DNA of 64,000 nt, from contig CP087563.1 in the NCBI GenBank assembly GCA_020974905.1, positions 5,208,001-5,272,000 on the forward strand. Reading direction: 5' to 3'. Below the pieces are notes generated by a model. The model searched no databases. It was given only the letters and a program-made list of their open reading frames with translations, and had not been told where the DNA came from. The position numbers and the translations under genes are program-made. Below, piece by piece: positions 24,368-40,573 of this stretch; position 1 is the stretch's first letter, and the number at the start of each line of letters is the position of its first letter. The stretch comes from Planctomycetes bacterium syqfu. Its GTDB lineage: Bacteria > Planctomycetota > Phycisphaerae > Phycisphaerales > Phycisphaeraceae.

Positions 24368-24445
24368 ATCTCTGCGCAGTGGTGTGCAGCGTGCTTAGAC
24401 GCTGTGCAAAAAATCAACTTGCTGATTTACTTTTTATGACAATTC

Positions 24446-24470
24446 TGTCGCGCGCGATTCGACCGTGACA
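24446..24470. promoter_or_regulatory. dyad TGTCGCG...CGTGACA upstream of nifH
   Basis: The imperfect inverted repeat TGTCGCG-N11-CGTGACA lies about 200 bases upstream of the predicted nifH transcription start. It is a weak operator candidate only. Confidence 0.25.
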
Positions 24471-24538
24471 CGAATGTTTCCAACTAGTTGATAGCATGTC
24501 TCAATACCACTTTTTTGAAAAAGTCCACAAGTTTTTTT

Positions 24539-24556
24539 AAAGACATTTTAGTCTTT
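24539..24556. promoter_or_regulatory. candidate nif operator 1 (AAAGAC-N6-GTCTTT)
   Basis: This is a perfect inverted repeat AAAGAC-ATTTTA-GTCTTT, with centre about 126 bases upstream of the predicted nifH start of transcription. That is a normal distance for an upstream activator site of a sigma-54 promoter. The 5' extension TTTAAAGAC is shared with copy 2. Confidence 0.6.
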
Positions 24557-24629
24557 AGTTATTGATTTGTTTTCAAGGACTTACGATTTTTCGAGATCAT
24601 GCCAAGCCCCATAACCATGCGATTTATTT

Positions 24630-24647
24630 AAAGACTTATCTGTCTTT
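24630..24647. promoter_or_regulatory. candidate nif operator 2 (AAAGAC-N6-GTCTTT)
   Basis: This is a second perfect copy, AAAGAC-TTATCT-GTCTTT, 91 bases from the first (centre to centre). Its last base abuts the -24 box of the nifH promoter. In this position a bound protein would block sigma-54 polymerase or contact it directly. Confidence 0.6.
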
Positions 24648-24662
24648 TGGAATGGCCTTTGC
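24648..24662 (+). promoter_or_regulatory. sigma-54 (-24/-12) promoter of nifH
   Basis: TGGAATG-GCCT-TTGC matches the TGGCACG-N4-TTGC consensus with GG and GC exactly ten bases apart. It predicts transcription from about 24674 and a 70-base leader before the nifH ATG. A GAFTGA-containing activator is encoded at the end of the island. Confidence 0.7.
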
Positions 24663-24712
24663 CATAAGGATCAGCGTCGACGCGAAAACAGTCACGCGTC
24701 AGAAAACGTTGA

Positions 24713-25576
<864 letters not shown>

Positions 25577-25744: not shown

Positions 25745-27379
25745 GTGGCACCTGACTCCCCTGAACAAGCCGTTGAACTTACCCCGGATGGCACGCTGAC
25801 CAGCGAAGCACTCCGTGAAGAGTTACTCAAAGCTTACCCCAAGAAGTCGCGTCGCAAGCGCGAAAAACAGTTCATTATCAATGAAAAGACCGTCAACGAA
25901 GACGGCACCGTGACGCTCCCGCAGATCGGTGCAAATACACGTACCATCCCAGGCATCCTCACGCAGCGTGGTTGTACCTACGCGGGTTGTAAGGGTGTGA
26001 TTCTGGGTCCGACACGTGACATCGTTAACATCACGCACGGACCCATCGGTTGTGGTTACTACTCATGGCTGACCCGTCGTAACCAGACGTCAGCTCCTTC
26101 CGATGATCATGAAAACTACATGACCTACTGCTTCTCCACCGACATGCAGGATGAAAACATCATCTTCGGCGGTGAAAAGAAACTCGCAGCAGCCATCCAG
26201 GAAGCCTATGACATCTTCCAACCCAAGGCCATTGCCGTCTTCTCGACCTGCCCCGTGGGTCTGATCGGTGACGACGTGCACCAGGTTGCCAAGGACATGA
26301 AAGAAAAACTGGGGATTAACATCTTCGGTTTCTCATGCGAAGGCTACAAGGGTGTGTCCCAGTCTGCTGGTCACCACATCGCCAACAATCAGGTGTTCAA
26401 GCACGTGGTCGGTACCGACAACACGCCTCGCAGCAAGTTCTCGATCAACCTGCTGGGTGAATATAACATCGGTGGTGACGCATTCGTCCTCGAAGACCTG
26501 CTTGAACGCTGCGGCATTGAACTGGTGTCCACCTTCTCAGGTAACAGCACCTATGACCAATTCGCCAACGCTCACATGGCCAATCTCAATGCCGTCATGT
26601 GTCATCGTTCCATCAACTATGTCGCTGACATGATCGAAAAGAAATACGGTACGCCGTGGATCAAGGTCAACTTCATCGGTGCCAAGTCCACCGCCAAGTC
26701 GCTACGTAAGATCGGCGAATACTTCGCGGATGAAAAACTGATGGAACAGATCGAAAAGGTCATCAGCGAAGAATACCCAGCCGTCTTCGAAGCTCAGAAG
26801 CAGTACAAGCCCAAGCTTGAAGGCAAGCGTGTGATGCTCTTCGTCGGTGGTAGCCGTGCTCATCACTATCAGGATCTGTTTGGTGAACTGGGCATGAAGA
26901 CCGTTGCTGCCGGCTACGAATTCGCTCACCGCGATGACTATGAAGGCCGTGACGTCATTCCTGACATCAAGATTGATGCCGACAGCCGCAACATTGAAGA
27001 ACTTCATGTTGATGCGGACCCGGACATGTACGACAGCGACAAGGTCCGCGACAAGTGGGCCAAGGAAGAAAAGGGTTACAGCTTTGCTGAGTACGACGGC
27101 ATGATGACCCAGATGGCTGAAAAGGCCCTGGTCATCGACGATATCAACCACTACGAATCTGAAGAGTTGATCAAGCGCGTCAAGCCGGACCTCTTCTGTG
27201 CAGGCATCAAGGAAAAATACGTCGTCCAGAAGATGGGTGTCCCGTGTAAGCAGCTTCACAGCTACGACTACGGCGGACCCTATGCCGGCTTCCGTGGTGC
27301 CATCGAGTTCTACAAGGACATTGATCGCCTGGTCAACGCCAAGGTCTGGAAGATGATCAAGGCCCCGTGGGACGAGTGA
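25745..27379 (+). CDS. nifD: nitrogenase molybdenum-iron protein alpha chain NifD
   Basis: The 544-residue subunit holds FeMo-cofactor. P-cluster ligands are seen as RGCTYAGCKGV (Cys near 77), GPIGCGYYSW (103) and FSTCPVGLIGDD (169). Cofactor ligands are Cys near 286 in AVMCHRSINYV and His near 505 in KQLHSYDYGGPYAGF. Gln and His of the substrate pocket are in GVSQSAGHHIANN. About 50 extra residues between YEFAHRDDYEGRD and the C-terminal domain are the insertion known from cluster III NifD (Clostridium type). The GTG at 25745 follows CAGGAGAACCCACC and is preferred over an upstream GTG at 25679 that has no ribosome-binding site. VnfD and AnfD are not supported. There is no nifI1/nifI2 between nifH and nifD. 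Confidence 0.97.
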   Translation: MAPDSPEQAVELTPDGTLTSEALREELLKAYPKKSRRKREKQFIINEKTVNEDGTVTLPQIGANTRTIPGILTQRGCTYAGCKGVILGPTRDIVNITHGPIGCGYYSWLTRRNQTSAPSDDHENYMTYCFSTDMQDENIIFGGEKKLAAAIQEAYDIFQPKAIAVFSTCPVGLIGDDVHQVAKDMKEKLGINIFGFSCEGYKGVSQSAGHHIANNQVFKHVVGTDNTPRSKFSINLLGEYNIGGDAFVLEDLLERCGIELVSTFSGNSTYDQFANAHMANLNAVMCHRSINYVADMIEKKYGTPWIKVNFIGAKSTAKSLRKIGEYFADEKLMEQIEKVISEEYPAVFEAQKQYKPKLEGKRVMLFVGGSRAHHYQDLFGELGMKTVAAGYEFAHRDDYEGRDVIPDIKIDADSRNIEELHVDADPDMYDSDKVRDKWAKEEKGYSFAEYDGMMTQMAEKALVIDDINHYESEELIKRVKPDLFCAGIKEKYVVQKMGVPCKQLHSYDYGGPYAGFRGAIEFYKDIDRLVNAKVWKMIKAPWDE

Positions 27380-27386
27380 GTTTTTC

Positions 27387-27478
27387 AGGGAGTAGTGATT
27401 AGGCAGTAGGGAGTGGTCCAAGACAACAACCATTCTCCTGCCTTGAACCTGGTCCCTGGTCGCTAGTCCCTAGTCCCT
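27387..27478. repeat. fold-back of short phased CCCTAGT-type repeats (family E copy 1), nifD-nifK gap
   Basis: The left side AGGGAGTAGTGATTAGG...AGGGAGTGG faces the right side GGTCCCTGGTCGCTAGTCCC TAGTCCCT, roughly as reverse complements. Copies of the same CCCTA-rich phased motif occur at 34296-34547 and 51793-51827. Confidence 0.7.
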
Positions 27479-27516
27479 CTTTTTAAAGAAAACACTGAAA
27501 TTTAAGGGTAAATAAA

Positions 27517-28911
27517 ATGTCATTACTCAGACACACAAAAGGCGGGGAAGTTCATGAGCGTCAGGCTCTGACCGTGAACCCAGCCAAAACCTGTCAGCCT
27601 GTGGGCGCGATGTATGCTGCCCTGGGTATTCATAAATGTCTTCCGCATTCTCACGGTTCACAAGGTTGCTGCTCATATCACCGTTCGACTTTGAGTCGTC
27701 ACTACAAAGAACCGGCGATGGCAGGCACCGGCTCCTTCACCGAAGGTTCATCGGTGTTCGGTGGCCAGGCCAACCTGCTTACCGCCATCGAAAACATGTT
27801 CACGCTTTACAAGCCTGATGTCATTGCTGTGCATACCACCTGCTTGTCGGAAACCATCGGTGACGACATCCCGCAGATCACGGAAAACGCGATTGATAAA
27901 GGCCTGGTTCCCGAAGGCAAGTTTGTTATTCATGCCAACACGCCTTCGTATGTCGGTGCTCATCCGACCGGCTTTGCCAACATGACCAAGGCCATGGTCG
28001 ACTACTTCGCCAAGAGCACCCGTGAAGACAAAGTTGCTCGCCGCGTCAACATCATCCCCGGCTACGTTGAACCGGCGGACATGGCAGAAATCAAGCGTCT
28101 TGCCAAGCTCATGGGCCTGGACCCGATCATGTTCCCCGACACCTCCGGCGTGCTCGATGCGCCGCAGACCGGTGTGCATGAAATGTATCCGGCCGGTGGC
28201 GTGACCATCGACGAACTCATCGCAGCAGGTGATGCGCAACAGACCATCGCATTGGGTCCGGTTTGCTCCGGTCCTGCAGCCAAAGCACTGTACGCCAAGT
28301 GCAAAGTGCCTCAGACCACCATGGGACTGCCCATCGGTCTGGCTGCCACCGACAAGTTCGTCATGGCTATGCGTAGCCTCAACGGCGGCTTCGTTCCCGA
28401 AGAAATCAAGTACGAACGCGGCCGTCTGCTCGACCTGATGACCGATATGCACCAGTACTTCTACGGCAAGTCCGTGGCACTCTGGGGCGATCCCGATCAA
28501 CTGGTCGGCCTCTCCGAACTGCTCATGTCCGTGGACATGCTGCCCAAGTATGTCGTCACCGGCACACCGGGTAAGAAGTTCCTCAAGCGCATGGGCGATG
28601 TCCTGGGCGACAAGGTTCACGAATCCTTCGTCCGTCAAGGTCCCTGTGCTGACATGTACCTCATGCACCAATGGATCAAGAACGAGCCCTGCGATCTGCT
28701 CATGGGTAACACCTATGGCAAGTACATCGCTCGCGACGACGATATCCCCTACGTTCGCCATGGCTTCCCGATCCTCGACCGCGTCGGACATCAGTACTTC
28801 CCGACCGTCGGTTACAAGGGTGCCATCCGCGTCCTCGAACAAATTCTCAACGTGCTCATGGACCGCCAGGACCGTGACTCACCGGAAGAAACCTTCGAAC
28901 TGACGATGTAA
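27517..28911 (+). CDS. nifK: nitrogenase molybdenum-iron protein beta chain NifK
   Basis: The 464-residue subunit is shorter than the Azotobacter type by about 50 N-terminal residues, as expected for cluster III. P-cluster Cys ligands are visible in AKTCQPVGAMYA (near residue 26), GSQGCCSYHRS (near 51) and HTTCLSETIGDD (near 109), with the Ser region NTPSYVGAHPTGF. With NifD it forms the alpha2-beta2 MoFe protein that reduces N2. It follows nifD after a 137-base gap that holds a CCCTA-type fold-back. A very strong terminator at 29027-29080 ends the nifHDK unit. Confidence 0.97.
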   Translation: MSLLRHTKGGEVHERQALTVNPAKTCQPVGAMYAALGIHKCLPHSHGSQGCCSYHRSTLSRHYKEPAMAGTGSFTEGSSVFGGQANLLTAIENMFTLYKPDVIAVHTTCLSETIGDDIPQITENAIDKGLVPEGKFVIHANTPSYVGAHPTGFANMTKAMVDYFAKSTREDKVARRVNIIPGYVEPADMAEIKRLAKLMGLDPIMFPDTSGVLDAPQTGVHEMYPAGGVTIDELIAAGDAQQTIALGPVCSGPAAKALYAKCKVPQTTMGLPIGLAATDKFVMAMRSLNGGFVPEEIKYERGRLLDLMTDMHQYFYGKSVALWGDPDQLVGLSELLMSVDMLPKYVVTGTPGKKFLKRMGDVLGDKVHESFVRQGPCADMYLMHQWIKNEPCDLLMGNTYGKYIARDDDIPYVRHGFPILDRVGHQYFPTVGYKGAIRVLEQILNVLMDRQDRDSPEETFELTM

Positions 28912-29026
28912 CCCCCGGAAGGTTGAAAAGGTGATCGCTAGTTTGCCTTGAATACCTGGGAGATTACGACAAACCAGAACCACTCATCTGCGTCCATGAC
29001 ACACCCACATGATGGACGTGACAACA

Positions 29027-29080
29027 CCGCGGTGTGGCGGGCATGCGTGCCCCTTGCCCGCCACACTCGGTTTTTTTTTA
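29027..29080 (+). terminator. strong rho-independent terminator after nifK
   Basis: GTGTGGCGGGCA pairs with TGCCCGCCACAC, with the stem extended by ACCG/CGGT, followed by nine T. It separates nifHDK from mop-nifENB. A smaller hairpin, CGTCCAT/ATGGACG, lies at 28991-29018. Confidence 0.93.
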
Positions 29081-29115
29081 ACAGTCACCCAAAGGGCACA
29101 CCAGAAAGCATCGCG

Positions 29116-29397
29116 ATGAAAATCAGTGCACAAAACAAATTGATGGGCAAAGTCGTTTCCATCGACAAAGGTGCCGTCAACAGCATCGTCAAAATCGAGC
29201 TTTCAGCCAATCCGGTGATCACCGCGGTGATCACCAACAACGCCGTTGAAGACCTTGAGTTGGTCGAAGGTGGGCAAGCCTGTGCAGTCGTCAAATCATC
29301 CAACGTGATGGTGGGCATCTGCCAGGACGGCAAAGGCAAGGAAAAAGAGTCCGGCGAATGTTGCAGCGGAAGCTGTGGCTGCCAGGGACACAAATAA
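29116..29397 (+). CDS. mop: molbindin-like Mop protein with Cys-rich tail
   Basis: The 93-residue protein is one Mop/TOBE domain (residues 1-70: SAQNKLMGKVVSIDKGAVNSI, then IELSANPVITAVITNNAVEDLEL and CAVVKSSNVMVGI). Such domains bind molybdate as oligomers and buffer it in the cytoplasm. A tail rich in Cys follows (GECCSGSCGCQGHK, five Cys), which is not part of the usual molbindin. It sits between nifK and nifE, as molbindins do in some clostridial nif clusters, and fits a role in supplying Mo for FeMo-cofactor. The start at 29116 is the first Met of the domain; the open frame extends upstream across the terminator and is not used. Confidence 0.88.
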   Translation: MKISAQNKLMGKVVSIDKGAVNSIVKIELSANPVITAVITNNAVEDLELVEGGQACAVVKSSNVMVGICQDGKGKEKESGECCSGSCGCQGHK

Positions 29398-29561
29398 ACC
29401 AGCAATCGAAAGTCTTCACCGACGGCTTTCGTGACGCGAGTGCCCGCTTGAGACCTTGAGTAAAACGCAAAGCATTTTCCGGGAATGCTTCCGGGGGCCG
29501 GGGGGAGCACTCGTATCACCAAACCCGATGGTTTGAAACCACATCCGTACGGTTAAACAAC

Positions 29562-31091
29562 ATGAATGGGCACAACATCATGACAACCGCCATCGAAAAC
29601 AACATCAGACTACTTGAAGCCCGCAAGGCACAAGTGCAGACCAAAGGAAGCGAGCCGTTCAACATCGCCTGCGAAAAGCAGTCGGTTGCCGGCAGCGTTT
29701 CTCAGCGCGCTTGTGTGTTTTGTGGGTCTCGTGTGGTGCTTTACCCAATCTGTGATGCACTGCATGTCATACACGGTCCCATCGGCTGTGCATCGTACAC
29801 ATGGGACATCCGTGGCAGCGTCTCCTCCGGACCGCAGCTTCACCGCATGTCTTTCTCCACGGACCTCCAGGAAAAGGACGTGATCTACGGCGGTGAAAAG
29901 AAGCTAGAAAAAGCACTGCTCGAACTCATCGCACATTACAACCCCAAGGCTGCATTCGTCTACGCGACCTGCATCGTCGGCTTGATCGGTGATGACATGG
30001 ACGCGGTGTGTCGACGCGTCTCTGCCAGGACTGGCATTGATGTGATCCCCGTGCAGTCCGAAGGTTTTGCCGGTTCAAAAAAGGATGGATACTCTGCGGC
30101 TTGCCATGCCTTGGATCAACTCGTGGGAACGGGGGACACCAGTGACATCAAGCCGCTGAGTATCAATATTCTCGGTGATTTCAACATCGGCGGGGAAACC
30201 TGGGTCATCAAAGACTACTACGAAAAAATGGGACTCCAGGTTGTCTCCACCATCACCGGCGACGGCCGCGTCGACGACATTCGTAAAGCCCATGGTGCAT
30301 CACTCAACGTCGTGCAATGTTCTGGCTCCATGAAGGGCCTGGCTCGCATGATGAAGGAAAAGTACGGCACACCGTTCATGCATGTCTCCTACTTCGGCAT
30401 CGAAGATATGAGTCGCGCCCTTTACGAAGTCGCTGACCACTTTGGTGATAAAGACCTGCTTAAGCGAGCACAGGATATGGTCCGCGATGAAGTGATGCGG
30501 ATCATGCCCGAACTTCGCAAGATTCGTCAGGACCTTGAAGGTAAGAAGGCTGCCATCTACACCGGCGGTGCGTTCAAGGCATTCAGTCTGGTGCGATCAC
30601 TGCGGACACTCGGCGTTCAGACCACCATTGCTGGATCACAGACCGGTAACCCCACCGACTACAAACAACTGGCAGAACTCTGCGACGATGGGACCATCAT
30701 TCTTGATGACACCAACCCGCTGGAACTTGCAAAGTTCATCCAGGAAACCGACACCGATCTGCTCATCGGCGGAGTGAAGGAACGCCCCATCGCATACAAG
30801 CTTGGTGTTGCGTTCTGTGATCACAACCATGAACGCAAGGATTGCCTGGCTGGTTTTGAAGGCATGCTCAACTTCGCCCGCGAAGTGCACGGTTCGCTGT
30901 GTAGCCCGGTCTGGAAGTTCTCGCCTTTCCGACAGAAACACAAGGAAGCCGTTGGAAGTTCTCAAACAACTGAGAAACCCAAGGCGACCTATATCCCAAC
31001 CAACGTGATCAAGCCCGGTGAAACTTCCGGGGGCGGGGGCGAATCAAAGTTTGCAACATTAACCATTGGCGCGACGGAGGTGGCAAAGTGA
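29562..31091 (+). CDS. nifE: FeMo-cofactor scaffold NifE
   Basis: The 509-residue protein is a NifD paralogue with conserved Cys in RACVFCGSRVVLYP, GPIGCASYTWDIRGS and YATCIVGLIGDD, which bind the [4Fe-4S] cluster of NifEN. It lacks the cofactor-binding His environment of NifD. The central segment NILGDFNIGGETWVIKDYYEKMGLQVVST and the C-terminal FEGMLNFAREVHGSLCSPVWKF are typical of NifE. About 45 C-terminal residues, rich in Thr, Pro and Gly, are an extra tail. NifEN is the platform on which NifB-co becomes FeMo-cofactor with NifH. The start may be the ATG at 29562 or 29580. Its stop overlaps the nifN start (GTGA). Confidence 0.96.
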   Translation: MNGHNIMTTAIENNIRLLEARKAQVQTKGSEPFNIACEKQSVAGSVSQRACVFCGSRVVLYPICDALHVIHGPIGCASYTWDIRGSVSSGPQLHRMSFSTDLQEKDVIYGGEKKLEKALLELIAHYNPKAAFVYATCIVGLIGDDMDAVCRRVSARTGIDVIPVQSEGFAGSKKDGYSAACHALDQLVGTGDTSDIKPLSINILGDFNIGGETWVIKDYYEKMGLQVVSTITGDGRVDDIRKAHGASLNVVQCSGSMKGLARMMKEKYGTPFMHVSYFGIEDMSRALYEVADHFGDKDLLKRAQDMVRDEVMRIMPELRKIRQDLEGKKAAIYTGGAFKAFSLVRSLRTLGVQTTIAGSQTGNPTDYKQLAELCDDGTIILDDTNPLELAKFIQETDTDLLIGGVKERPIAYKLGVAFCDHNHERKDCLAGFEGMLNFAREVHGSLCSPVWKFSPFRQKHKEAVGSSQTTEKPKATYIPTNVIKPGETSGGGGESKFATLTIGATEVAK

Positions 31092-32458
31092 TTGTTCCAG
31101 AACCTGCAAAATCCGACCACTTCACCGCAACGCGCAATGCCTGCAAGATGTGCACGCCCTTGGGAGCCTGTCTGGCGTTCTCCGGCGTTGAAGGGTGCGT
31201 GCCGTTCCTTCATGGCTCCCAGGGGTGTGCCACGTACATCCGGCGCTACCTGATTTCGCACTTCCGTGAACCGATGGACATCGCGTCCTCGAACTTCGGT
31301 GAACACGCTGCAATCTTCGGCGGCCAGACCAACCTTGAAATGGGTTTGGCCAACGTGATCCGCAGCTATGAACCGGCCGTGATCGGTATCGCAACAACCT
31401 GCTTGTCGGAGACCATTGGCGATGACATGCCGATGTTCCTGCATCAATTTACGAGTAAGTATGCTGACCCGACCCCGCTGCCGCATTTGGTGCATGCATC
31501 AACGCCCAGCTATTCGGGTTCACACTTTGACGGTTACATGGAAGCAGTATTCGCACTTGCCAAGACACTGGCAAAAAAGGGCCAAACGCAAGCCAATCTC
31601 GTCAACATGATTCCCGGCGTGGTTTCGCCTGCTGACATCCGTCATCTCAAGGACATCCTTTCGGACTTCGGACTCGATTATGTCATGCTGCCTGATTACT
31701 CCGAACGCATGGATGGCGTGAGTTGGGATTCGTATCAGCGCATCCCCGAAGGCGGTACCACCGTTACTCAGCTCAACTCAATGGGCGCCGCAGCAGGCAG
31801 CATTGAGTTTGCCACCACGCATCACAAGTCCCAAACCGCTGGCGAATATCTCGCTTCGGAGTTCGGGGTTGAAAACCATCGCATGGATCTGCCCATCGGT
31901 ATCGGTGCGACGGACAAGTTCTTCGACGCCCTTGAAAAACTCTCCGGCAAGACGACTCCTCGCCGTCACCAGATGGATCGCGGACGCCTCGTTGACAGCT
32001 ATGTCGATGGACACAAGTACTGCTTCGGCAAGCGTGCGATTCTCTACGGTGAAGAAGATTTCGTCATCGCTTTGGCAAGTTTCCTCTCAGAAATCGGCAT
32101 CGTCCCGGTGATGATTGCCTCCGGTGGCAAGAGTGGCAAGCTGCTTGCTAACATCGAACGTGTCCTGCCTGATCCTTCGGTTGCCACCGTTATGGATGGT
32201 GTGGACTTTGAAGAAATCACCGATGCGGCGATGGACATGCATGCTGATCTGATCATCGGCAATTCCAAGGGGTTTAAACTTTCACAAAAACTCGATGTGC
32301 CACTTGTGCGTGTGGGTCTGCCGATCCACGACCGCATGGGCGCATCCCGCATCGTTCACCTGGGATACCAGGGCACGCAGTATCTCTACGACCTGATCGT
32401 CAACACGCTCCTGGACGTGAAACAGCGCACCAGTGAAGTTGGCTACACCTATATTTGA
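31088..32458 (+). CDS. nifN: FeMo-cofactor scaffold NifN
   Basis: The 456-residue protein is a NifK paralogue. ACKMCTPLGACLAFSGVEGC, LHGSQGCATYIRRY and TTCLSETIGDDMP give the conserved Cys landmarks; the NifK Ser region appears as ASTPSYSGSHFDGYMEAV. It partners NifE. The start is GTG at 31088, overlapping the nifE stop, so the two are translationally coupled. The 16-base gap to nifB contains the GAGGAG ribosome-binding site of nifB. nifE, nifN and nifB are therefore one operon. Confidence 0.96.
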   Translation: MIVPEPAKSDHFTATRNACKMCTPLGACLAFSGVEGCVPFLHGSQGCATYIRRYLISHFREPMDIASSNFGEHAAIFGGQTNLEMGLANVIRSYEPAVIGIATTCLSETIGDDMPMFLHQFTSKYADPTPLPHLVHASTPSYSGSHFDGYMEAVFALAKTLAKKGQTQANLVNMIPGVVSPADIRHLKDILSDFGLDYVMLPDYSERMDGVSWDSYQRIPEGGTTVTQLNSMGAAAGSIEFATTHHKSQTAGEYLASEFGVENHRMDLPIGIGATDKFFDALEKLSGKTTPRRHQMDRGRLVDSYVDGHKYCFGKRAILYGEEDFVIALASFLSEIGIVPVMIASGGKSGKLLANIERVLPDPSVATVMDGVDFEEITDAAMDMHADLIIGNSKGFKLSQKLDVPLVRVGLPIHDRMGASRIVHLGYQGTQYLYDLIVNTLLDVKQRTSEVGYTYI

Positions 32459-32474
32459 GTGAGGAGCGTTTACC

Positions 32475-33773
32475 ATGGCAATTGACTGTTCAAAGCACCC
32501 CTGTTTCGATGCCGACGCCAAGCACAAGTACGGCCGCGTGCATCTGCCCGTCGCCCCCAAGTGCAATCTCGGTTGTAATTTCTGCAACCGCAAATTCGAC
32601 TGCATGAATGAGTCACGCCCCGGTGTGACCAGCACCATCCTGGCTCCGCAGCAGGCGTTGAGTTATCTCAAAAAAGTGGTCGATATCGTGGACACACCCA
32701 TCAGCGTGGTCGGTATTGCAGGCCCTGGTGACCCGTTTGCCAACGGCAAGGAAACCATGGAAACCCTGCGTCTGATCCGCAAGGATTTTCCTGAGATGAT
32801 TCTCTGCGTTTCCTCCAACGGCCTGGGGATCGGCCCGTACATTGAAGAACTCGCCGAGTTGGAAACCAGTCACGTCACCATCACGTGTAACGCAGTTGAT
32901 CCGACGATTGGTGAAAAGATTTATCGCTTCGCCCGTCCGGACAAGATGGTTTACCGCGGTCTTGCTGCTGCCCAGATTCTGCTTTCGCGTCAGCTTGATG
33001 CGATCCGTCAGCTTCACGAACATGGTGTGACCGTCAAGGTCAACAGCATTGTGATGCCCGGCATTAACGATCACCACATCGAAGAAATCTCCAAGACGGT
33101 GCAAGCCTTGGGTGCCGATGTGCACAACTGCATGGCATTGATTCCCGTTGAAGGCACGCCGTTCCATGAACTGGATGAACCTTCCGCGGAGTTGATGGAA
33201 GCCGTCCGTGCGAAGTCCGGTCAGTACTTGCCTCAGATGAAGCATTGCTCGCGCTGTCGTGCCGATGCCGTGGGCATGCTCGGTGAGGATAACAGTGAGT
33301 TGATCAACCAGGCGTTACGTGAGTCGGCCAATGCACCGATTGCACAAGATGCTGAGAATCGTCCCTACATTGCAGTCACTTCGTATGAAGGTGTGCTGGT
33401 CAATCAGCATCTTGGCGAATCCGAACAACTCTGGGTCTTCGGCCCGGATGGTCACTGTGGTTACAAGTCCATCGAAACCCGCCCGACGCCGGTTCCCGGT
33501 GGTGGTGAAAATCGTTGGGATGAGTTGGCAAAACGTTTGACGGACTGCCAGGCGATCATCTGTTCATCCGCTGGACAGAATCCCAAGGTTGCTTTAGCCA
33601 AGCATGGCATTCGTGTGCTTGTTGCTGAAGGACTCATTGAGGAAGCACTTGATGCGGTCTACAAGGGACAGAAACCGCGTATGCCTTCCCGCGTCACCAA
33701 GAATGGTTCTGGCTGTGACGACGACGGCGTCGGATGCGGCGGTTGCACCGGGACAGGCACGGGCTGCGGTTAA
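32475..33773 (+). CDS. nifB: NifB: radical SAM FeMo-cofactor core synthase with fused NifX-like domain
   Basis: The 432-residue protein has the radical SAM motif CNLGCNFC (C-x3-C-x2-C, residues about 30-37) with VAPKCNLGCNFCNRKFDC, then a TIM-barrel with GIAGPGDPFANG and the HCSRCRADAVGMLGED segment that binds accessory Fe-S clusters. From about residue 290 a NifX/dinitrogenase-cofactor-binding domain follows (YIAVTSYEGVLVNQHLGES, LWVFGP). NifB makes NifB-co, the 8Fe-9S-C core. The C-terminus GCDDDGVGCGGCTGTGTGCG is Gly/Cys-rich, a tail not typical of NifB and similar in style to the tail on Mop. Fusion with the NifX domain may explain the lack of a separate nifX here. Confidence 0.96.
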   Translation: MAIDCSKHPCFDADAKHKYGRVHLPVAPKCNLGCNFCNRKFDCMNESRPGVTSTILAPQQALSYLKKVVDIVDTPISVVGIAGPGDPFANGKETMETLRLIRKDFPEMILCVSSNGLGIGPYIEELAELETSHVTITCNAVDPTIGEKIYRFARPDKMVYRGLAAAQILLSRQLDAIRQLHEHGVTVKVNSIVMPGINDHHIEEISKTVQALGADVHNCMALIPVEGTPFHELDEPSAELMEAVRAKSGQYLPQMKHCSRCRADAVGMLGEDNSELINQALRESANAPIAQDAENRPYIAVTSYEGVLVNQHLGESEQLWVFGPDGHCGYKSIETRPTPVPGGGENRWDELAKRLTDCQAIICSSAGQNPKVALAKHGIRVLVAEGLIEEALDAVYKGQKPRMPSRVTKNGSGCDDDGVGCGGCTGTGTGCG

Positions 33774-33891
33774 ACACAAACACAATCGCTGCGACACAGC
33801 GTGAACAATACTTTTATGGCGATGAACCTTGTCAATCATCGCGCGATTGAAACAGAGTTTTTTTCAATTACACAACACAAGGATATACGTT

Positions 33892-34194
33892 ATGGAAACC
33901 TGCAAATATCACATCATGATCTGCAACAGCTACCGCACCCAGGGCGAACCCAAGGGCGTCTGCAACAAGAAGGGTGCTGCTGATTTGCCGCAGTACATTG
34001 AAAACGAAGTCATCGACCGTGAGCTTGATGCGATGGTCTCAACGACCAGTTGCTTTAAGCGTTGCGACAAAGGCCCGCTGATGGTGGTTTACCCCAACGG
34101 CTGGTGGTACCCGCAAGTCGACGAAGAGAAGATCGATGAAATTCTCGACGCACTGGAAGATGACTCTCCCTGCGAAGCCTTGCTCGCTGAGTAA
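33892..34194 (+). CDS. thioredoxin-like [2Fe-2S] ferredoxin of the nif island
   Basis: The 100-residue protein has Cys at positions 11 and 24 (METCKYHIMIC...GVCNKK) and a C-x3-C pair in TTSCFKRCDKGPLMVVYPNGWWY. This spacing matches the clostridial-type thioredoxin-fold [2Fe-2S] ferredoxin, which in Clostridium pasteurianum lies in the nif region and binds the MoFe protein. It may donate electrons to nitrogenase or its assembly. The ATG at 33892 follows AAGGATATACGTT. The gap to nifV is filled by repeats. Confidence 0.9.
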   Translation: METCKYHIMICNSYRTQGEPKGVCNKKGAADLPQYIENEVIDRELDAMVSTTSCFKRCDKGPLMVVYPNGWWYPQVDEEKIDEILDALEDDSPCEALLAE

Positions 34195-34205
34195 CAAGTT
34201 TTTTG

Positions 34206-34281
34206 ACCACGGGGAACACGGGGCTGGATAACCAACTCGATCTTCATGTGCCTGCATTGTGATCTCTGTGTTCTCCGTGGT
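34206..34281. repeat. fold-back of phased CCACGGAGAACAC repeats after the ferredoxin gene
   Basis: CCACGGGGAACACGGGG faces CTCTGTGTTCTCCGTGG, and seven T follow. It is a repeat element that may also act as a terminator for the ferredoxin transcript. Confidence 0.75.
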
Positions 34282-34295
34282 TTTTTTGTTTGTCG

Positions 34296-34547
34296 AGGGA
34301 CTAGCGACTAGGGACTAGATTTTTGAAACAAGCACAGAGCAGTTTGCGTCATTAATCGCCATACAGAAGTCTGATTCGTCATTCCCGCGAAGGCGGGAAT
34401 CCAGTGGCATGCAGTAGAAAAGTTGCAGATTCCACTGGACTCCCGCCTTCGCGGGAGTGACGGAAATAGGCGATTTTTTATACAAGTTGCTCTAATTGAA
34501 ACTTCTGGCTTTACTCCTAATCCCTAATCACTAATCCCCTATCCCTG
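34296..34547. repeat. fold-back of phased CCCTAGT-type repeats (family E copy 2) enclosing a family B element
   Basis: Left arm AGGGACTAGCGACTAGGGACTAG; right arm rich in CCCTAAT/CCCTATCCCTG, roughly its reverse complement. The family B paired hairpin at 34378-34463 lies inside. Together with the element at 34206 it fills the 372-base gap between the ferredoxin gene and nifV, and no gene is visible there. Confidence 0.7.
34378..34463. repeat. paired-hairpin repeat, family B copy 2
   Basis: ATTCCCGC/GCGGGAAT and ACTCCCGC/GCGGGAGT hairpins, closely matching copy 1 at 15752-15836 in length and order. Confidence 0.9.
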
Positions 34548-34566
34548 TTTTTCTTGGATCAAAGTC

Positions 34567-35736
34567 ATGTGTCAGGACAACCTCAACTGCTGGATCGTGG
34601 ATACGACGTTGCGCGATGGGGAGCAGGCTCCGGGGGTTGCTTTCTCGCCAGAGCAGAAAATTGCCATCGCCACTGCGTTGGCAGCAGTCGGTGTCGATGA
34701 AATCGAAGTCGGCACGCCTGCAATGGGACCGGCTGAACGTCAGACCATTGCTCAAATCGTCGACCTGAATCTACCCGTCCGTCTCACCGCCTGGTGTCGC
34801 GCCCGCAAACAGGATTTGCAATGGGCTTTATCCACCGGGGTCAAAGCAGTCCACCTGTCGTTGCCCGTTTCACAGATTCATCTCCGCGCGATCGGCAAAG
34901 ACATGACATGGGTTTATGACCAGATGCATGAACTGGTTCCCTGGGCTTTGTCCCGTTTTGACTATGTCTCCGTTGGCGCACAGGATGCTTCTCGCGCTGA
35001 CATCCGTGAACTGCGTCACTTCGTTGCAGAAGTCCGGACGGTTGGCGCACATCGCGTGCGCATTGCTGACACCGTGGGTGTCTGGCATCCGATGGCAGCC
35101 TACGAAGCTTGCTACGATTGTGTCGATGCAGCACGTGACATGACCGTCGGTGTTCACATGCATAACGATCTTGGCATGGCGCTGGCAAACAGTGTCATGG
35201 CGTTGGAAGCCGGTGTTACCAGTGTCGACACCACCGTGCTGGGACTTGGTGAACGTGCAGGGAACGTTGCCCTTGAGCAGTTGATCATGAGTCTTCAACT
35301 GCGTCGTGATACCAAGAGTTCGCCGCATCACCTGGACCAACTACCGGGTATCTGCAAGCTGGTTTCACAAGCCAGTGGTCGGCCGATTCCTGTCAATCAA
35401 CCTGTTGTTGGGGAGAGTGTTTTCAGTCATGAGTCAGGGATTCACGTGCATGCGATGCTCCGCGACACCACGGCCTACGAACCGTTTGAACCGAGCATGC
35501 TTGGCCTCAGTCGCCAGTATGTCATCGGCAAGCATTCGGGGACCGCTGCACTGAAGCACGTGCTTTCAAGCTGTAAACGCGAGGCATTGGATGAGACGCA
35601 ATTGGCCGAGTTGCTGACGCTTGTTCGTGAAGCAGCGTCGGAATTGAATCGGGGGTTAACGAGTTTTGAAGTTTGTGACTTGTATGACCGATTCGTGCCT
35701 CACGTGCGGCATGTCGTAGAATTGATAGGATCATGA
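34567..35736 (+). CDS. nifV: homocitrate synthase NifV
   Basis: The 389-residue protein opens with VDTTLRDGEQAPGVAFSP, the metal-binding and catalytic start of the DRE-TIM metallolyases. It continues with VGVHMHNDLGMALANS (His-x-His metal ligands) and SHESGIHVHAMLRD. NifV condenses acetyl-CoA with 2-oxoglutarate to give homocitrate, the organic ligand of FeMo-cofactor. Length and location in the island favour NifV over isopropylmalate synthase. It overlaps modA by ATGA (35733-35736), so cofactor ligand synthesis and molybdate uptake are translationally linked. Confidence 0.95.
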   Translation: MCQDNLNCWIVDTTLRDGEQAPGVAFSPEQKIAIATALAAVGVDEIEVGTPAMGPAERQTIAQIVDLNLPVRLTAWCRARKQDLQWALSTGVKAVHLSLPVSQIHLRAIGKDMTWVYDQMHELVPWALSRFDYVSVGAQDASRADIRELRHFVAEVRTVGAHRVRIADTVGVWHPMAAYEACYDCVDAARDMTVGVHMHNDLGMALANSVMALEAGVTSVDTTVLGLGERAGNVALEQLIMSLQLRRDTKSSPHHLDQLPGICKLVSQASGRPIPVNQPVVGESVFSHESGIHVHAMLRDTTAYEPFEPSMLGLSRQYVIGKHSGTAALKHVLSSCKREALDETQLAELLTLVREAASELNRGLTSFEVCDLYDRFVPHVRHVVELIGS

Positions 35737-36515
35737 AACCCTTTTTGTTCTTACTCATTGCTTTGTTCGCCCTGAGCCTGACACTGACAGGATGTGATCA
35801 ATCCAACGCTTCAGCCCCGCAGCAGGCTCAACGACAGTTGACGATTTTCGCTGCAGCGAGCACCACCAATGTCATTGAACAGTTGGCATTGATGTACCAG
35901 CAGCAGACCGGCGTGAAGGTGATGACCAGTTTTGCTTCATCAAGCACGTTGGCCCGTCAGATCGAGCAGGGTGCCAAGGCCGATTTGTATCTCTCAGCCA
36001 ATACCAAGTGGATGGACTACCTGCAGGATCGGAATCTCATCGCGCCCAAGACGCGTGTGGATTTGCTGGCCAACCGCATCGTCCTTGTTGCCCCGACATC
36101 AGCATCGCTTAAGTCTTGGCAGAGTCTTGAACCGCTTGATAACTTCACGGATAAGTTGGCGATGGGCGATCCGGATTACGTACCTGCGGGAATGTATGGC
36201 AAAACGTCCTTAACGAATCTGGGATTCTGGGATAAGATTGCATCACAGGTCGTCCCTGCCAAGGATGTCCGCGGTGCGTTATTGCTGGTAGAAACCGGCC
36301 AGGCATCGTTAGGCCTGGTGTATGCAACGGACGCTGCAGCGAGCAGGAAGGTCAGCGTGGTTTACGCGTTACCGCAAAGTTCGCATCAGCCGGTCCGTTA
36401 CCCGCTGGCTTTGAGGGATGGGACGTCCAATGAAGCTGCCGCCTTTGCGGTGTATTTACAGTCGGATGAAGCACGCAGTGTTTTTGAGCGTGCCGGTTTT
36501 GAGGTGATCAGGTAA
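35733..36515 (+). CDS. modA: molybdate-binding lipoprotein ModA
   Basis: The 260-residue protein has a lipoprotein signal (MKPFLFLLIALFALSLTLTGC, with LTGC as lipobox) and the ModA pattern LTIFAAASTTNVIEQLALMY, SFASSSTLARQIEQGAKADLYLSA and PAGMYGKTSLTNLGFWDKI. It captures molybdate (or tungstate) outside the cytoplasmic membrane for the ModBC permease. Mature domain size is normal. It starts inside the nifV stop codon, and modB follows after 56 bases. Confidence 0.95.
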   Translation: MKPFLFLLIALFALSLTLTGCDQSNASAPQQAQRQLTIFAAASTTNVIEQLALMYQQQTGVKVMTSFASSSTLARQIEQGAKADLYLSANTKWMDYLQDRNLIAPKTRVDLLANRIVLVAPTSASLKSWQSLEPLDNFTDKLAMGDPDYVPAGMYGKTSLTNLGFWDKIASQVVPAKDVRGALLLVETGQASLGLVYATDAAASRKVSVVYALPQSSHQPVRYPLALRDGTSNEAAAFAVYLQSDEARSVFERAGFEVIR

Positions 36516-36571
36516 ACCAGACAACCAGATCGATTTGATCCGGTTCGCGATGACAGAAAAGAACAACCGCC

Positions 36572-37291
36572 ATGTTCAGTCAATGGACAACCCAAGATAC
36601 CACCGCCGTGCTGCTGACGCTTCGCGTTGCCGCGTGTTGTGTGGGTTTGCTGTTGGTGCCCGGCGTGTTTCTGGGTTGGTTGCTAGCTCGCAAGCGATTT
36701 TTCGGTCGGACATGGCTTGAAGCGGCGATCAATTTGCCATTGGTTTTACCACCTGTCGTGGTGGGTTACGGTTTGTTGATGCTCACAGGGCGTCAAAGTC
36801 ACATCGGTTCCTTTTTCGAAAACACACTGGGGATTCCCATCGCGTTCACGTGGATCGCTGCGGTGTTGGCGTCATCCGTGATGGCCTTGCCGCTGATGGT
36901 CCGTGCGGTGCGATTGGCCATCGAATCGGTGGACAAGGGACAGGAACAGGCGGCCTCGGTCTGTGGTGCCTCACCCATGCGTGTCTGGTTCACCATCACA
37001 CTCCCCGCAGCCCTTCCGGGGGTGATTACCGGAATGATTCTTGCCTTTGCCCGCAGTGTCGGTGAGTTTGGTGCGACCATCACTTTTGCAGGCAATATCG
37101 AAGGTCAGACCCGCACACTCCCGCTTGCCATCTTCCGTGCGATGCAGTTACCTGATGCCCAGTCGTCGGTGCATCGTCTGGTGATTGCTTCGATTGTTCT
37201 TTCACTCACCGCGGTGTTTTTCTCCGAATGGCTGAGTCGCCGATATCGTGACAGTGCGCTGCGCACCGAACATGCAAGGAGTCACTCATGA
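36572..37291 (+). CDS. modB: molybdate ABC transporter permease ModB
   Basis: The 239-residue protein has about five membrane helices and the ABC-permease EAA loop (EQAASVCGASPMRVWFTITLPAALPGVITGMILAFARSVGEFGATITFAG), which contacts ModC. The first helices LLTLRVAACCVGLLLVPGVFLGWLLA and LPLVLPPVVVGYGLLML are typical of ModB. Its stop overlaps the modC start (ATGA at 37288-37291). Confidence 0.95.
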   Translation: MFSQWTTQDTTAVLLTLRVAACCVGLLLVPGVFLGWLLARKRFFGRTWLEAAINLPLVLPPVVVGYGLLMLTGRQSHIGSFFENTLGIPIAFTWIAAVLASSVMALPLMVRAVRLAIESVDKGQEQAASVCGASPMRVWFTITLPAALPGVITGMILAFARSVGEFGATITFAGNIEGQTRTLPLAIFRAMQLPDAQSSVHRLVIASIVLSLTAVFFSEWLSRRYRDSALRTEHARSHS

Positions 37292-38499
37292 GTCTGCATG
37301 TCGATGTACAACTGCTGCGTGGTAACTTCGAACTGGATGTCCAATGTGATCTGGCAGGGGGCATGCTCGGTGTCTACGGTCCGTCGGGCAGTGGAAAGAG
37401 TACACTCATTGACCTGCTTGCTGGCATGGTCCGACCGACCACCGGTTCGATCAAGCTCAACGAGGTGATGCTTTGTGACGCCAAGTCGCGAACGTTTGTC
37501 CCGCCTCACAAGCGGCAGGTATGCGTGGTGTTTCAGGACAACCGACTCTGGCCGCACAAGACCGTCCGCAAAAACATCACCTATGGCTACAAACTCACGC
37601 CCAACAGTTCACGTCGGTTTACACCCGAGGAGATTGCCCGGTTTTTGAAAATCGACCACCTGCTGGATCGCAAGGCCGGCACACTCTCCGGCGGGGAGCA
37701 GAAACGCGTTGCCATCGCACGGGCAATCCTCTGCTTCCCCAGGTTGCTGTTGCTGGATGAGCCGACTGCCGGTCTTGATCCGAGGCTTATTGATCAGATT
37801 TTGCCGCTGCTTAAGCAGGTGTCGCAGTTGACGCGCATCCCCATGATGATCGTCAGCCATCAACTCAGTGAACTATTGAGTCTGACGGACCACCTGCTAC
37901 TGATGCGGGATGGCAAGGCGATTGCCCAAGGTCGGTTCATGGACCTGGTGCAGGATGAGCGGACATTCAGTCGGCTGAATCTCAGCGAACCGGTCAACGT
38001 CCTGCCGTTGGTAGTGGATGACTTGGATACGCAGGCCGGTTTGACGGTGATGCGTTTCCGCGGGGAGCCGTCGCAATCGCGAAGGTATCCGGTCCGTGGT
38101 GTGATTGACGAAACCTTAAGCGTTGGCCAATGTGTCAATGGATTGCTGCGTCCCAGTGATATCACGCTGGCGATGTCACCGGCTGAGACGATCACGATGC
38201 AGAACCGCTTGCCGGGCGTGGTCCGACAGGTCATCGAGCAGGGCAATCGTCACTTCTGCGTGGTGGATGTCAACGAGAGCAGCACACCTGCCAGTGTCCT
38301 CGTGGAAGTCACACAGCAGGCCATCGCCGAATTCAATCTCCGGCAGGGGGTTCGCACGTGGTGTCTGTTCAAAGCCTCGGCATTGAGCCTGCATGCAGAC
38401 GTGATGACCGAACAGGCTGATATGCAATCCTCACTTCCCAACTCTGACCGATTCGATTGCCCGTGTACGCGATTCCGTGACACGACCTGTCAGAACTGA
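37288..38499 (+). CDS. modC: molybdate ABC transporter ATPase ModC
   Basis: The 403-residue protein has Walker A GPSGSGKSTLIDLLAG (residues about 31-46), the signature LSGGEQKRVAIARAIL, Walker B RLLLLDEPTAGLD and the switch His in MMIVSHQ. After about residue 230 comes a regulatory part with TOBE-like strands (NRLPGVVRQVIEQGNRHFCVVD and VLVEVTQQAIAEFNLRQG), which in ModC bind molybdate and feed back on transport. The final 40 residues form a hydrophilic tail with two Cys, slightly longer than usual. It is the last gene of nifV-modABC. Confidence 0.94.
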   Translation: MSLHVDVQLLRGNFELDVQCDLAGGMLGVYGPSGSGKSTLIDLLAGMVRPTTGSIKLNEVMLCDAKSRTFVPPHKRQVCVVFQDNRLWPHKTVRKNITYGYKLTPNSSRRFTPEEIARFLKIDHLLDRKAGTLSGGEQKRVAIARAILCFPRLLLLDEPTAGLDPRLIDQILPLLKQVSQLTRIPMMIVSHQLSELLSLTDHLLLMRDGKAIAQGRFMDLVQDERTFSRLNLSEPVNVLPLVVDDLDTQAGLTVMRFRGEPSQSRRYPVRGVIDETLSVGQCVNGLLRPSDITLAMSPAETITMQNRLPGVVRQVIEQGNRHFCVVDVNESSTPASVLVEVTQQAIAEFNLRQGVRTWCLFKASALSLHADVMTEQADMQSSLPNSDRFDCPCTRFRDTTCQN

Positions 38500-38775: not shown

Positions 38776-38923
38776 GGTAATTACACAAGCGTAAGTACCG
38801 ACTTGCTTGATGGCACGAGAATCGTTGATGTAACGCTTGATATAACAGAGGTAAACCTCGTCAAAAACGACATTAACGTCACTTTAGTACCATCTTGGAG
38901 TCACCCGGACGACCCTCGACGCT

Positions 38924-40573
38924 GTGAGTATGCCGATGCGTGAGGCCAAAAACACCGACAACCCGTTGCCTACGGTCTGTTCAGATGATTGCCAGTTGCA
39001 TATGAATGCAGCAGACCCCATGATGTGCGCCGAGCAAAAGCGTCGCCGAGAAGGCGAAATGCAGGCGCTATATGACATTGCCCGTGTTCTCTCCGAACGC
39101 AGTGGGCAACAGCAAACTTTGACGGAAATCCTCAAGGTCCTGGAAGATCGTCTGAACATGAAGCGTGGCACGGTGATGCTGCTTGATGGTGACAAGACCG
39201 AGCTGTTTGTCGCTGCCACCGCCAATCATGCTTCGGGTGACACGGCTGCCAGTTACAAGCCTGGTGAAGGTGTCACCGGTTATGTGATGACCACGGGCCA
39301 ATCCATCATCGTCCCGAGCATTGCCAACGAACCGCGGTTTTGTGATCGCATTCATGATCGCAGTCAAGAGTCGTTGGAAGATGTGAGTTTCATCTGCGTG
39401 CCGATCACCGTCGGCTCCACACCGGTGGGGACCTTAGCGGTGGATATCACCGATGAGAGTTTGAAGTTCCTTGACGAAGCCGAACGTTGCCTGACGATTG
39501 TGGCAAGCATGATCGGTTATGACGTGCGTTCGCGACGTCTCAAACAGGAACAGGCTCAGGCATTGCAGGATGAGAACCTGCGTTTGCGTGATGCCCTGGA
39601 AGAAAAATTCCGACCTGAAAATATCGTGGGTAACTCGCGACTGATGCGTGAGGTCTACGTGAAGATCAAACGTGTTGCAGCAAGCGATACCACCGTGCTC
39701 ATCCGTGGGGAGACCGGCACGGGTAAGGAACTTATTGCCACCGCCATTCACTATGCCTCCGCCCGCGCCAATGCCCCATTCGTTCGCGTCAACTGTGCTC
39801 AACTTTCTGAGAATCTGCTTGAGTCTGAACTCTTTGGTCATGAAGTCGGAGCGTTTACCGGTGCGATCAATCAGCGCATCGGGCGCATCGAGGAAGCCCA
39901 GGGCGGGACATTGTTCCTCGATGAGATTGGCGAGTTTTACCCGTCGTTACAGGTCAAGATTCTGCGCGTGCTTCAGGAGCGCGAGTTTGAACGGGTGGGG
40001 TCCAACGAGACGATCAAAGCCAATGTGCGGATCATTGCTGCAACGAATCGCGATTTGGAACAAGCGGTCCAAAATTCGCAGATGCGTCAGGATTTTTACT
40101 ATCGCATCAACGTGTTCCCGATTGTCTTACCTCCGCTGCGTGAACGTCGCGATGACATTCTGCTTTTAGCCAATCACTTTGCCCAGTCTTATGCCAAGCA
40201 TATGGACAAGCAGATCAAACGGATCAGCACGCCTGCGATCAATGCGATGATGTCCTATCACTGGACGGGGAACGTGCGAGAGCTTGAGAACTGCGTGGAG
40301 CATGCGGTGCTGCTGGCTGATGATGGCGTGATCTGCGCCCACAATCTCCCGCCGACATTGGAAATGCCCGAAGCCCCGGGACAATCTCAGACAGGGACGT
40401 TCGAAGCGCAGGTGGATGCCTTGGAACGTGATCTGATCAGTGATGCGCTTAAGACGTGTAAAGGCAACGCCGCTGCCGCCGCCCGACAGTTGGGCATCAC
40501 CCCGCGTATCATCCGTTACAAGATCAAGAAGCTGGACATCGATCTGGACAGTTTCAGCTATCCCGCCAAGTGA
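38924..40573 (+). CDS. nifA: NifA-type sigma-54-dependent activator
   Basis: The 549-residue regulator has a GAF domain (residues about 45-200), a helical linker, an AAA+ domain (about 230-455) with Walker A GETGTGKE, the sigma-54 contact loop GAFTGA near 309-314, Walker [13 protein letters not shown] and the RVGSNETI region, and a C-terminal Fis-type helix-turn-helix [27 protein letters not shown]. Domain order and the recognition helix (TPR-x2-x-Y-x-I) match NifA. The linker between AAA+ and HTH has no Cys pair, so the oxygen-sensing Cys motif of rhizobial NifA is absent, and no nifL is adjacent. It lies on the same strand at the end of the island. The start could be GTG at 38924 or ATG at 38930 or 38936. 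Confidence 0.88.

Follow-up and report, generated by a model that had tools for sequence, protein, structure and literature searches.

How the nitrogenase genes of a planctomycete are switched on, and which DNA sequence their activator reads, are questions raised by the region ahead of nifH in Planctomycetes bacterium syqfu. We analysed 64,000 nucleotides of its contig CP087563.1 (the window), in which nifH is preceded by two AAAGAC-N6-GTCTTT palindromes, here called op1 and op2, that an initial annotation had put forward as possibly a nif operator not described before. As read from the sequence, the control region is real and non-canonical. The proposed operator differs from TGT-N10-ACA and is very probably a nif operator, but on the sequences compared the conserved unit is the core GAC-N6-GTC / GACA-N4-TGTC and not AAAGAC-N6-GTCTTT. 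A search of the literature on nif regulation in the phylum and on neighbouring topics, with most subscription journals outside its coverage, found no nif operator there by title or start of abstract. In the available part of a sigma-54 survey, the classes with nitrogen-fixation genes enriched among the targets include no planctomycete class (PMC12316311). The features are collected in Table 1.

Table 1. Control sites and genes discussed in the text (window positions; a dot marks sites without orientation).
Feature	Position	Strand	Remarks
Site A, GACAATTCTGTC	24438..24449	.	Flanking bases TGAC..GTCG; closest of all to the operator seen across the phylum; centred at about -230 relative to the expected start
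Site A', GACACGAATGTT	24467..24478	.	Pairs with site A; centres 29 bp apart
op1, AAAGACATTTTAGTCTTT	24539..24556	.	First palindrome of the initial annotation; genus-level GAC-N6-GTC site; centre about -126
op2, AAAGACTTATCTGTCTTT	24630..24647	.	Second palindrome of the initial annotation; centre about -35; adjoins the -24 element
-24/-12 sigma-54 promoter, TGGAATGGCCTTTGC	24648..24662	+	Directly after op2; GG-N10-GC spacing
nifH	24746..25576	+	PF00142, 421 bits; TIGR01287, 451 bits
Remainder of nif cluster	25745..38499	+	NCBIfam matches; gene order in the text
Further GAC-N6-GTC site, GACATTAACGTC	38869..38880	.	About 50-60 bp before the nifA start
nif-cluster NifA	38924..40573	+	GAF, AAA+, Fis-type HTH (Pfam); candidate binder of GAC-N6-GTC sites

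The nifH promoter and its two palindromes

The cluster headed by nifH continues with nifD, nifK (placed by Pfam nitrogenase component 1), a Mop-domain gene, nifE, a nifN-like gene, nifB, a ferredoxin-like gene, a nifV-like gene, modA, modB and modC. The nifN-like gene (302.4 of 326.8 bits, with nifK scoring higher) and the nifV-like gene (438.2 of 462.9 bits) stand below their curated cut-offs, and the ferredoxin-like label is a reading of the sequence. The Mop-domain gene between nifK and nifE (molybdenum-binding, TIGR00638) occupies 28948-29397, and an inverted repeat around CATTCCCGCGAAGGCGGGAATCCAG, which resembles a dispersed repeat, lies before the nifV-like gene (34380-34470).

The sigma-54-type nifH promoter of the initial annotation is borne out by its -24/-12 element, in which GG and GC stand 10 bases apart and which comes near TGGCAC-N5-TTGC, and by an rpoN gene in the genome (TIGR02395, 384.2 bits against a cut-off of 277.35). 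The element scores 18.5 of 21 in a weighting of our own, by which a few other places in the window score equal or higher. G001 keeps every base of it (15/15), and G003 has TGGCACAAACCTTGC (9/15) in the corresponding position. The start of nifH transcription is expected near 24674. As had been stated, the gap lacks the classic NifA site: no TGT-N10-ACA occurs in 24360-24760.

The two palindromes are likewise in the sequence as described, with their coordinates, the common TTTAAAGAC, a start-to-start distance of 91 bases and the contact of op2 with the -24 box. Their arms are identical and their 6-base spacers unlike (ATTTTA in op1, TTATCT in op2). Exact AAAGAC-N6-GTCTTT occurs twice in the genome (7,376,598 bases, or 7.38 Mb, in one contig), as op1 and op2, against about 0.44 expected (genome length / 4^12), and both copies fall inside 109 bp ahead of nifH. 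This rarity of the exact form did not extend to its near-matches: one mismatch gives 33 further places in the genome against 21 for a reversed-pattern control, and up to two mismatches give three matches in the window against 2.16 expected. Thirteen of the 33 places were inspected. Eleven fall within open frames 100 codons or longer, and not one of the thirteen is both clear of such frames and within 350 bp of a sigma-54-like element. A genome-wide regulon, of which these 13 of 33 near-matches gave no sign, was therefore set aside, and AAAGAC-N6-GTCTTT seems to be a peculiarity of this single promoter.

Conservation upstream of nifH in relatives, which the initial annotation had set as its test, is seen for the core of the motif and not for its literal form. 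Among 27 nifH-family loci collected from the phylum, 25 have readable upstream sequence, and the exact motif is found in two of these 25, the window and G001, both of one genus. Three of the four genomes available for this genus carry nifH. In G001, op1 is identical over all 18 positions, and op2 keeps its arms (12/12) with a changed spacer (16/18 overall). G003 is without op1, matching it at 10/18 positions (arms 7/12) between stretches of 21/58 and 27/73 identity, and its op2 reads TAAGAC-N6-ATCTTT (arms 10/12; 14/18 with the spacer). By these alignments op1 is the least conserved site of the control region, with op2 intermediate. As RNA, op1 and op2 fold at -6.6 and -6.2 kcal/mol (z against shuffles -3.0 and -2.4); a hairpin or terminator reading was rejected, the stems being weak and located upstream of the expected start.

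A proposed operator core shared across the phylum

In order to find what the nifH upstream regions have in common, we computed the enrichment of all 64 triplets as dyads with spacers of 0 to 16 (1088 dyads) in the 450 bp before nifH. Over 18 loci outside the window's genus, ACA-N4-TGT ranked first (19 occurrences where 1.5 were expected, z 12.1), followed by GAC-N6-GTC (13 where 1.7 were expected, z 7.6); in 200 shuffles z reached at most 5.4. This first scan did not cover L046, whose NifA is canonical, L049, which shows no evident sigma-54 element, the genus members L016 and L019, or L062-L065, and its 141-bp stretch for L050 came from a wrong match. With that stretch corrected, the same two dyads led the 18 loci (z 12.7 and 8.3; shuffles at most 5.1), as they did all 22 readable loci outside the genus (z 14.3 and 7.2; shuffles at most 5.7), a set that lacks, apart from the genus itself, just L062, which has no P-loop match, and L063, for which there is no upstream sequence. 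Combined, the two dyads give a sequence that reads GACA-N4-TGTC.

At 17 loci outside the genus (L049, L050 and L062-L065 excluded), the 500-bp stretches ahead of nifH contain 26 sites with no more than one mismatch to this core, where about 2.6 were expected. At least one site is present in 15 of the 17 loci, and L052 and L055 have none in that stretch; the single matches of L048 and L054 are a long way upstream and probably fall within a coding region. Look-alikes before nifH in distant members of the phylum include TGACAATTCTGTCGG, CGACAATCTTGTCGA, TGACAAGATTGTCAG and TGACAAAATTGTCA, among others; in this comparison by eye the L051 stretch came from a second match. G374, G332 and G384, of the family of G151, carry TACAAATTTGTC, TACAAAATTGTC and TACAAAATTGTA, halfway to the TAC-N6-GTA form. 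The last of these, about 440 bp before nifH at L050 (G384), is the TAC-N6-GTA form known from AnfA, within the same phylum; the corrected L050 enters no count of GACA sites. By eye, palindromes like GGAAC-N6-GTTCC or GGTAC-N6-GTACC stand upstream of nifH in L048, L052, L054 and L055. Two other approaches were abandoned: TGACANNNNTGTCR with one mismatch matched 1011 forward places genome-wide against 322 for the reversed control and was too short for use, and a motif model fitted by expectation maximisation, which drifted towards AT-rich sequence, was dropped in favour of the dyad scan and counted sites.

The window itself has four sites with at most one mismatch in the 500 bp before nifH, against 0.22 expected. 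Two of them, at 24438-24449 (A) and 24467-24478 (A'), lie in the same gap as op1 and op2 and are missing from the initial annotation. Site A, 200 bp upstream within TGACAATTCTGTCG (24437-24450), matches the core without mismatch, and A', op1 and op2 have one each, the latter two agreeing at 7/8 core positions. In op1 and op2 the base just outside GAC is A, which has a frequency of 0.08 at a position normally taken by T or C in the phylum, and one inner A/T is missing from each.

In an alignment of three genus members, G003 agrees at 46/51 positions with block 24430-24480, which contains TGACAATTCTGTCG and TGACACGAATGTTTC. About 205 bp separate site A from the -24 element, and in other clusters where a site and a sigma-54-like element could be paired the distance is mostly about 200-260 bp, with single pairs at 138 and 322. 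Paired sites 29-31 bp apart recur in the window's genus, G029 (L021), G199 (L053) and G309 (L047). A doublet pattern allowing a mismatch at the last base alone was run against a selection of 20 genomes from the phylum, of which 16 have nifH and 4 lack it. It was found once each in G000, G001, G003 and G029, always directly before nifH, and in none of the remaining 16; the reversed control gave none. G199 and G309 escape the pattern because their doublets contain mismatches. Site A is a probable distal enhancer site.

The NifA clade and its recognition helix

The NifA of the cluster scores 543.6 bits against TIGR01817, above the equivalog cut-off of 528.85; its best stretch covers model positions 3-437 of 534, and the C-terminal part fits less well. 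Its recognition helix is of the type ..T.R..RYK.., whereas canonical NifA has TPRQIAYRIQ, and G003 has the same helix as the window, though op1 is not conserved there. We tabulated helix against operator for genomes with a nifH upstream region and a nif-linked NifA, counting sites with at most one mismatch and an AT-rich spacer. A GACA-N4-TGTC site lies within 450 bp of nifH in 12 of 13 genomes with an R/H-YK helix, and the thirteenth, G151, has two at -466 and -486. The canonical helix goes with TGT-N10-ACA in 4/4 genomes (G176 of the same phylum and three proteobacteria, L179-L181) and with the new core in 0/4.

The association is not strict and, because the genomes are related, rests on few independent events. 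Two of the 13 R/H-YK genomes, G432 and G310, also carry one TGT-N10-ACA each in the 450 bp ahead of nifH; G240, G374 and G332, with other helices, have one core site each at no more than one mismatch; and D. vulgaris, whose helix TPRQMGYRI is nearer canonical, has TAC-N6-GTA upstream. A midpoint-rooted tree built from 27 rows, which has several weak deeper forks and leaves out the L102, L177 and L107 proteins, places 12 R/H-YK proteins in one group (support 100/99) and the canonical four in another (100/100); the cluster's NifA is not grouped with proteobacterial NifA.

Some of these genomes came from a wider scan of genome contigs with the NifA alignment, which yielded 80 loci, four of them with a match to one of seven Nif queries beside them; nifH exceeded the cut-off in 8 of the 15 genomes searched out of those 80. 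L179-L181 (canonical helix) and L183 (Desulfobacteraceae) were added to the helix-operator table, and L182, L184, L186, L187, L185 and L188 stand outside it. The NifA-like proteins L112, L100 and L101 of L182, L184 and L186 have the helices TERVMGLRM, SERQMGLRV and TERKMSLRM, and the 500 bp before these loci contain neither GAC-N6-GTC nor TGT-N10-ACA. L187, the second nifH-like match of its genome, has one TGT-N10-ACA, and no nifH locus was added when more genomes from two classes were searched. By eye, the helix type MIQYK/VMQYK (G240 and G168; L048 and L054) goes with GG(T/A)AC-like arms, possibly a further operator variant.

The system resembles proteobacterial NifA control in its NifA-type enhancer-binding protein, its sigma-54 nifH promoter and its palindromic sites upstream of -24. 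It differs in having GAC-N6-GTC and not TGT-N10-ACA in the gap, distal sites about 200 bp from -24, and a NifA with another helix and a separate place in the tree. A further comparison is with AnfA and VnfA. According to the available parts of the respective papers, the AnfA operator of Rhodobacter capsulatus is TAC-N6-GTA, backed by mutation and gel shift (PMC7294313), and that of VnfA in Azotobacter vinelandii is GT(T/A)C-N6-GTAC (PMC9542535). These too are enhancer-binding activators of nitrogenase genes (AnfA with GAF, AAA+ and HTH) that share the frame AC-N6-GT, and in the same portions of the sources R. capsulatus anfH and most VnfA promoters have two sites, as in the window. The window's arms, however, are GAC/GTC and not TAC/GTA, and its operator precedes nifHDK in a different phylum, in a cluster that encodes a TIGR01817 protein. 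No TAC-N6-GTA lies within 450 bp of nifH in the window or the other R/H-YK genomes, and the inner AC-N6-GT alone is shared.

A candidate motif has also been described at nitrogenase operons of Desulfovibrionales for DVUA0143, which in the available part of the paper is an AnfA/VnfA-like regulator at a nif operon (PMC4641369). Upstream of nifH on the D. vulgaris DP4 plasmid we read GCTAC-AAAAAT-GTAGC, which falls in the AC-N6-GT frame with TAC and not GAC arms; it may or may not be the motif of that paper. The frame AC-N6-GT is thus already known, and the GAC arms and their link to a NifA clade were not found in the titles, starts of abstracts and passages surveyed. Searches for NifA regulons by TGT-N10-ACA would miss most nif promoters of the R/H-YK clade. 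With a second recognition code and helices that vary in nature (RYK paired with GAC, AYR with TGT and QYK perhaps with GG(T/A)AC-like arms), the helix-to-base rules of Fis-type activators would become testable by domain swaps.

Proposed distal activation and the place of op1 and op2

The sites, their enrichment across the phylum, their conservation and their association with the NifA clade are computed results, from which we infer NifA binding, looping and the roles of op1 and op2. We hold it to be reasonably probable that the cluster's NifA binds GAC-N6-GTC, with A and A' as the enhancer and op1 and op2 as genus-level extra copies of the core. The sigma-54 promoter of nifH would be driven by the NifA-type protein encoded at the end of the same cluster, whose clade, with its ..T.R..RYK.. 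helix, would read GAC-N6-GTC with inner A/T preferred and not TGT-N10-ACA. Sites A and A' (24438-24478), spaced by 29 bp and some 200 bp ahead of -24, would be the main enhancer, and NifA bound there would loop to the sigma-54 polymerase. Looping of this kind from a distal enhancer is how the protein family normally works.

op1 and op2 appear to be lineage-specific copies of the operator core, gained or retained in just part of the genus. The position of op1 would permit enhancer action. op2, centred near -35 and touching -24, would obstruct the polymerase when occupied, and would more probably limit or tune transcription, as has been suggested for the NtrC governor sites at glnAp2. We weight NifA binding of op1 and op2 below that of A and A' because their outer base is rare and an inner A/T is missing.

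It is rather unlikely that A and A' are the NifA sites while op1 and op2 form the operator of another protein of the genus, with AAAGAC/GTCTTT as the true half-site. Such a protein could be another enhancer-binding protein, or a repressor that occupies op2 and so blocks -24. The two palindromes do resemble each other (in TTTAAAGAC and GTCTTT) more than they resemble site A, depart from the phylum consensus outside GAC, are limited to the genus among the regions read and, in op2, touch -24; the genome also encodes further NifA-like enhancer-binding proteins, with six places in G000 at E <=1e-100, the cluster's NifA included. Their GAC arms and N6 spacer nevertheless equal the nif operator of the phylum. 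A chance sharing of the triplet adjoining the spacer amounts to 1 in 64 for the triplet alone, and an unrelated palindrome sharing both triplet and spacer length is unlikely. Two exact copies in 7.4 Mb, with no regulon among the near-matches inspected, and the unlike helix of the best-scoring NifA paralogue (INRNTLNKKVK) also speak against a separate regulator.

That op1 and op2 are AT-rich inverted repeats, weak hairpins or bent DNA, arisen by chance or structural in nature and without a binder, we regard as improbable. Mismatched versions do occur at about chance density, both palindromes fold better than shuffles and op1 is absent from G003. Against this, two exact 12-base palindromes lie within 109 bp, both with the phylum's nif operator core; the arms are intact in G001 (12/12 and 12/12) despite the changed op2 spacer; and op2 keeps 10/12 arm positions in G003 next to a stretch at 27/73. 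An RNA role is unlikely because both lie upstream of the expected start.

CRP/FNR sites read TGTGA-N6-TCACA or TTGAT-N4-ATCAA. The half-site resemblance noted initially is confined to the N6 spacer, as in CRP sites; AAGAC shares no position with TGTGA, and compared by eye with this consensus neither palindrome is a CRP/FNR site. A regulator of this family on op1 and op2, adding carbon or oxygen control of nifH, is therefore very improbable, even though the available parts of two papers implicate Crp/Fnr proteins in NifA control in some diazotrophs (PMC4422417) and report repression of E. coli glnAp2 by CRP-cAMP (PMC3870243).

Returning to NifA as the proposed binder of the core, a site before nifA itself extends the picture. 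GACATTAACGTC lies within a 21-base block, AAACGACATTAACGTCACTTT (38865-38885), that is identical in all three nif-bearing species of the genus, while the DNA around it has diverged in G003; no such site is listed before nifA in the G057 and G029 clusters. Its placement makes autoregulation of nifA possible. We speculate, as a tentative extension, that a clade of NifA outside the proteobacteria reads GAC-N6-GTC and that the genus promoter and the nifA site form a two-way switch. At low NifA, activation would proceed from the distal pair; at high NifA, the protein would limit itself via op2 and the nifA site. The genus would have added two promoter-proximal copies, one fused to -24, plus the one before nifA.

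A precedent is E. coli glnAp2, where low-affinity NtrC sites were proposed as governors limiting output and where, in the available part of the paper, a high-affinity distal pair is likewise combined with low-affinity sites nearer the sigma-54 promoter (PMC3870243). Protein and sequence differ, and a governor role for op1 and op2 would follow by analogy alone.

Two minor observations concern the regulators themselves. The N-terminus of the cluster's NifA (38924-39050) has a C-x3-C ... C pattern common to several aligned relatives; cysteines of such regulators are linked, in the available part of the source, to iron-sulfur clusters and oxygen sensitivity (PMC7294313). A second full-length NifA-like protein with the helix INRNTLNKKVK is encoded outside the nif cluster (L069, G000:C1:5569728-5571305), with full-length matches, probably orthologues, in G001, G003, G018, G029 and G057.
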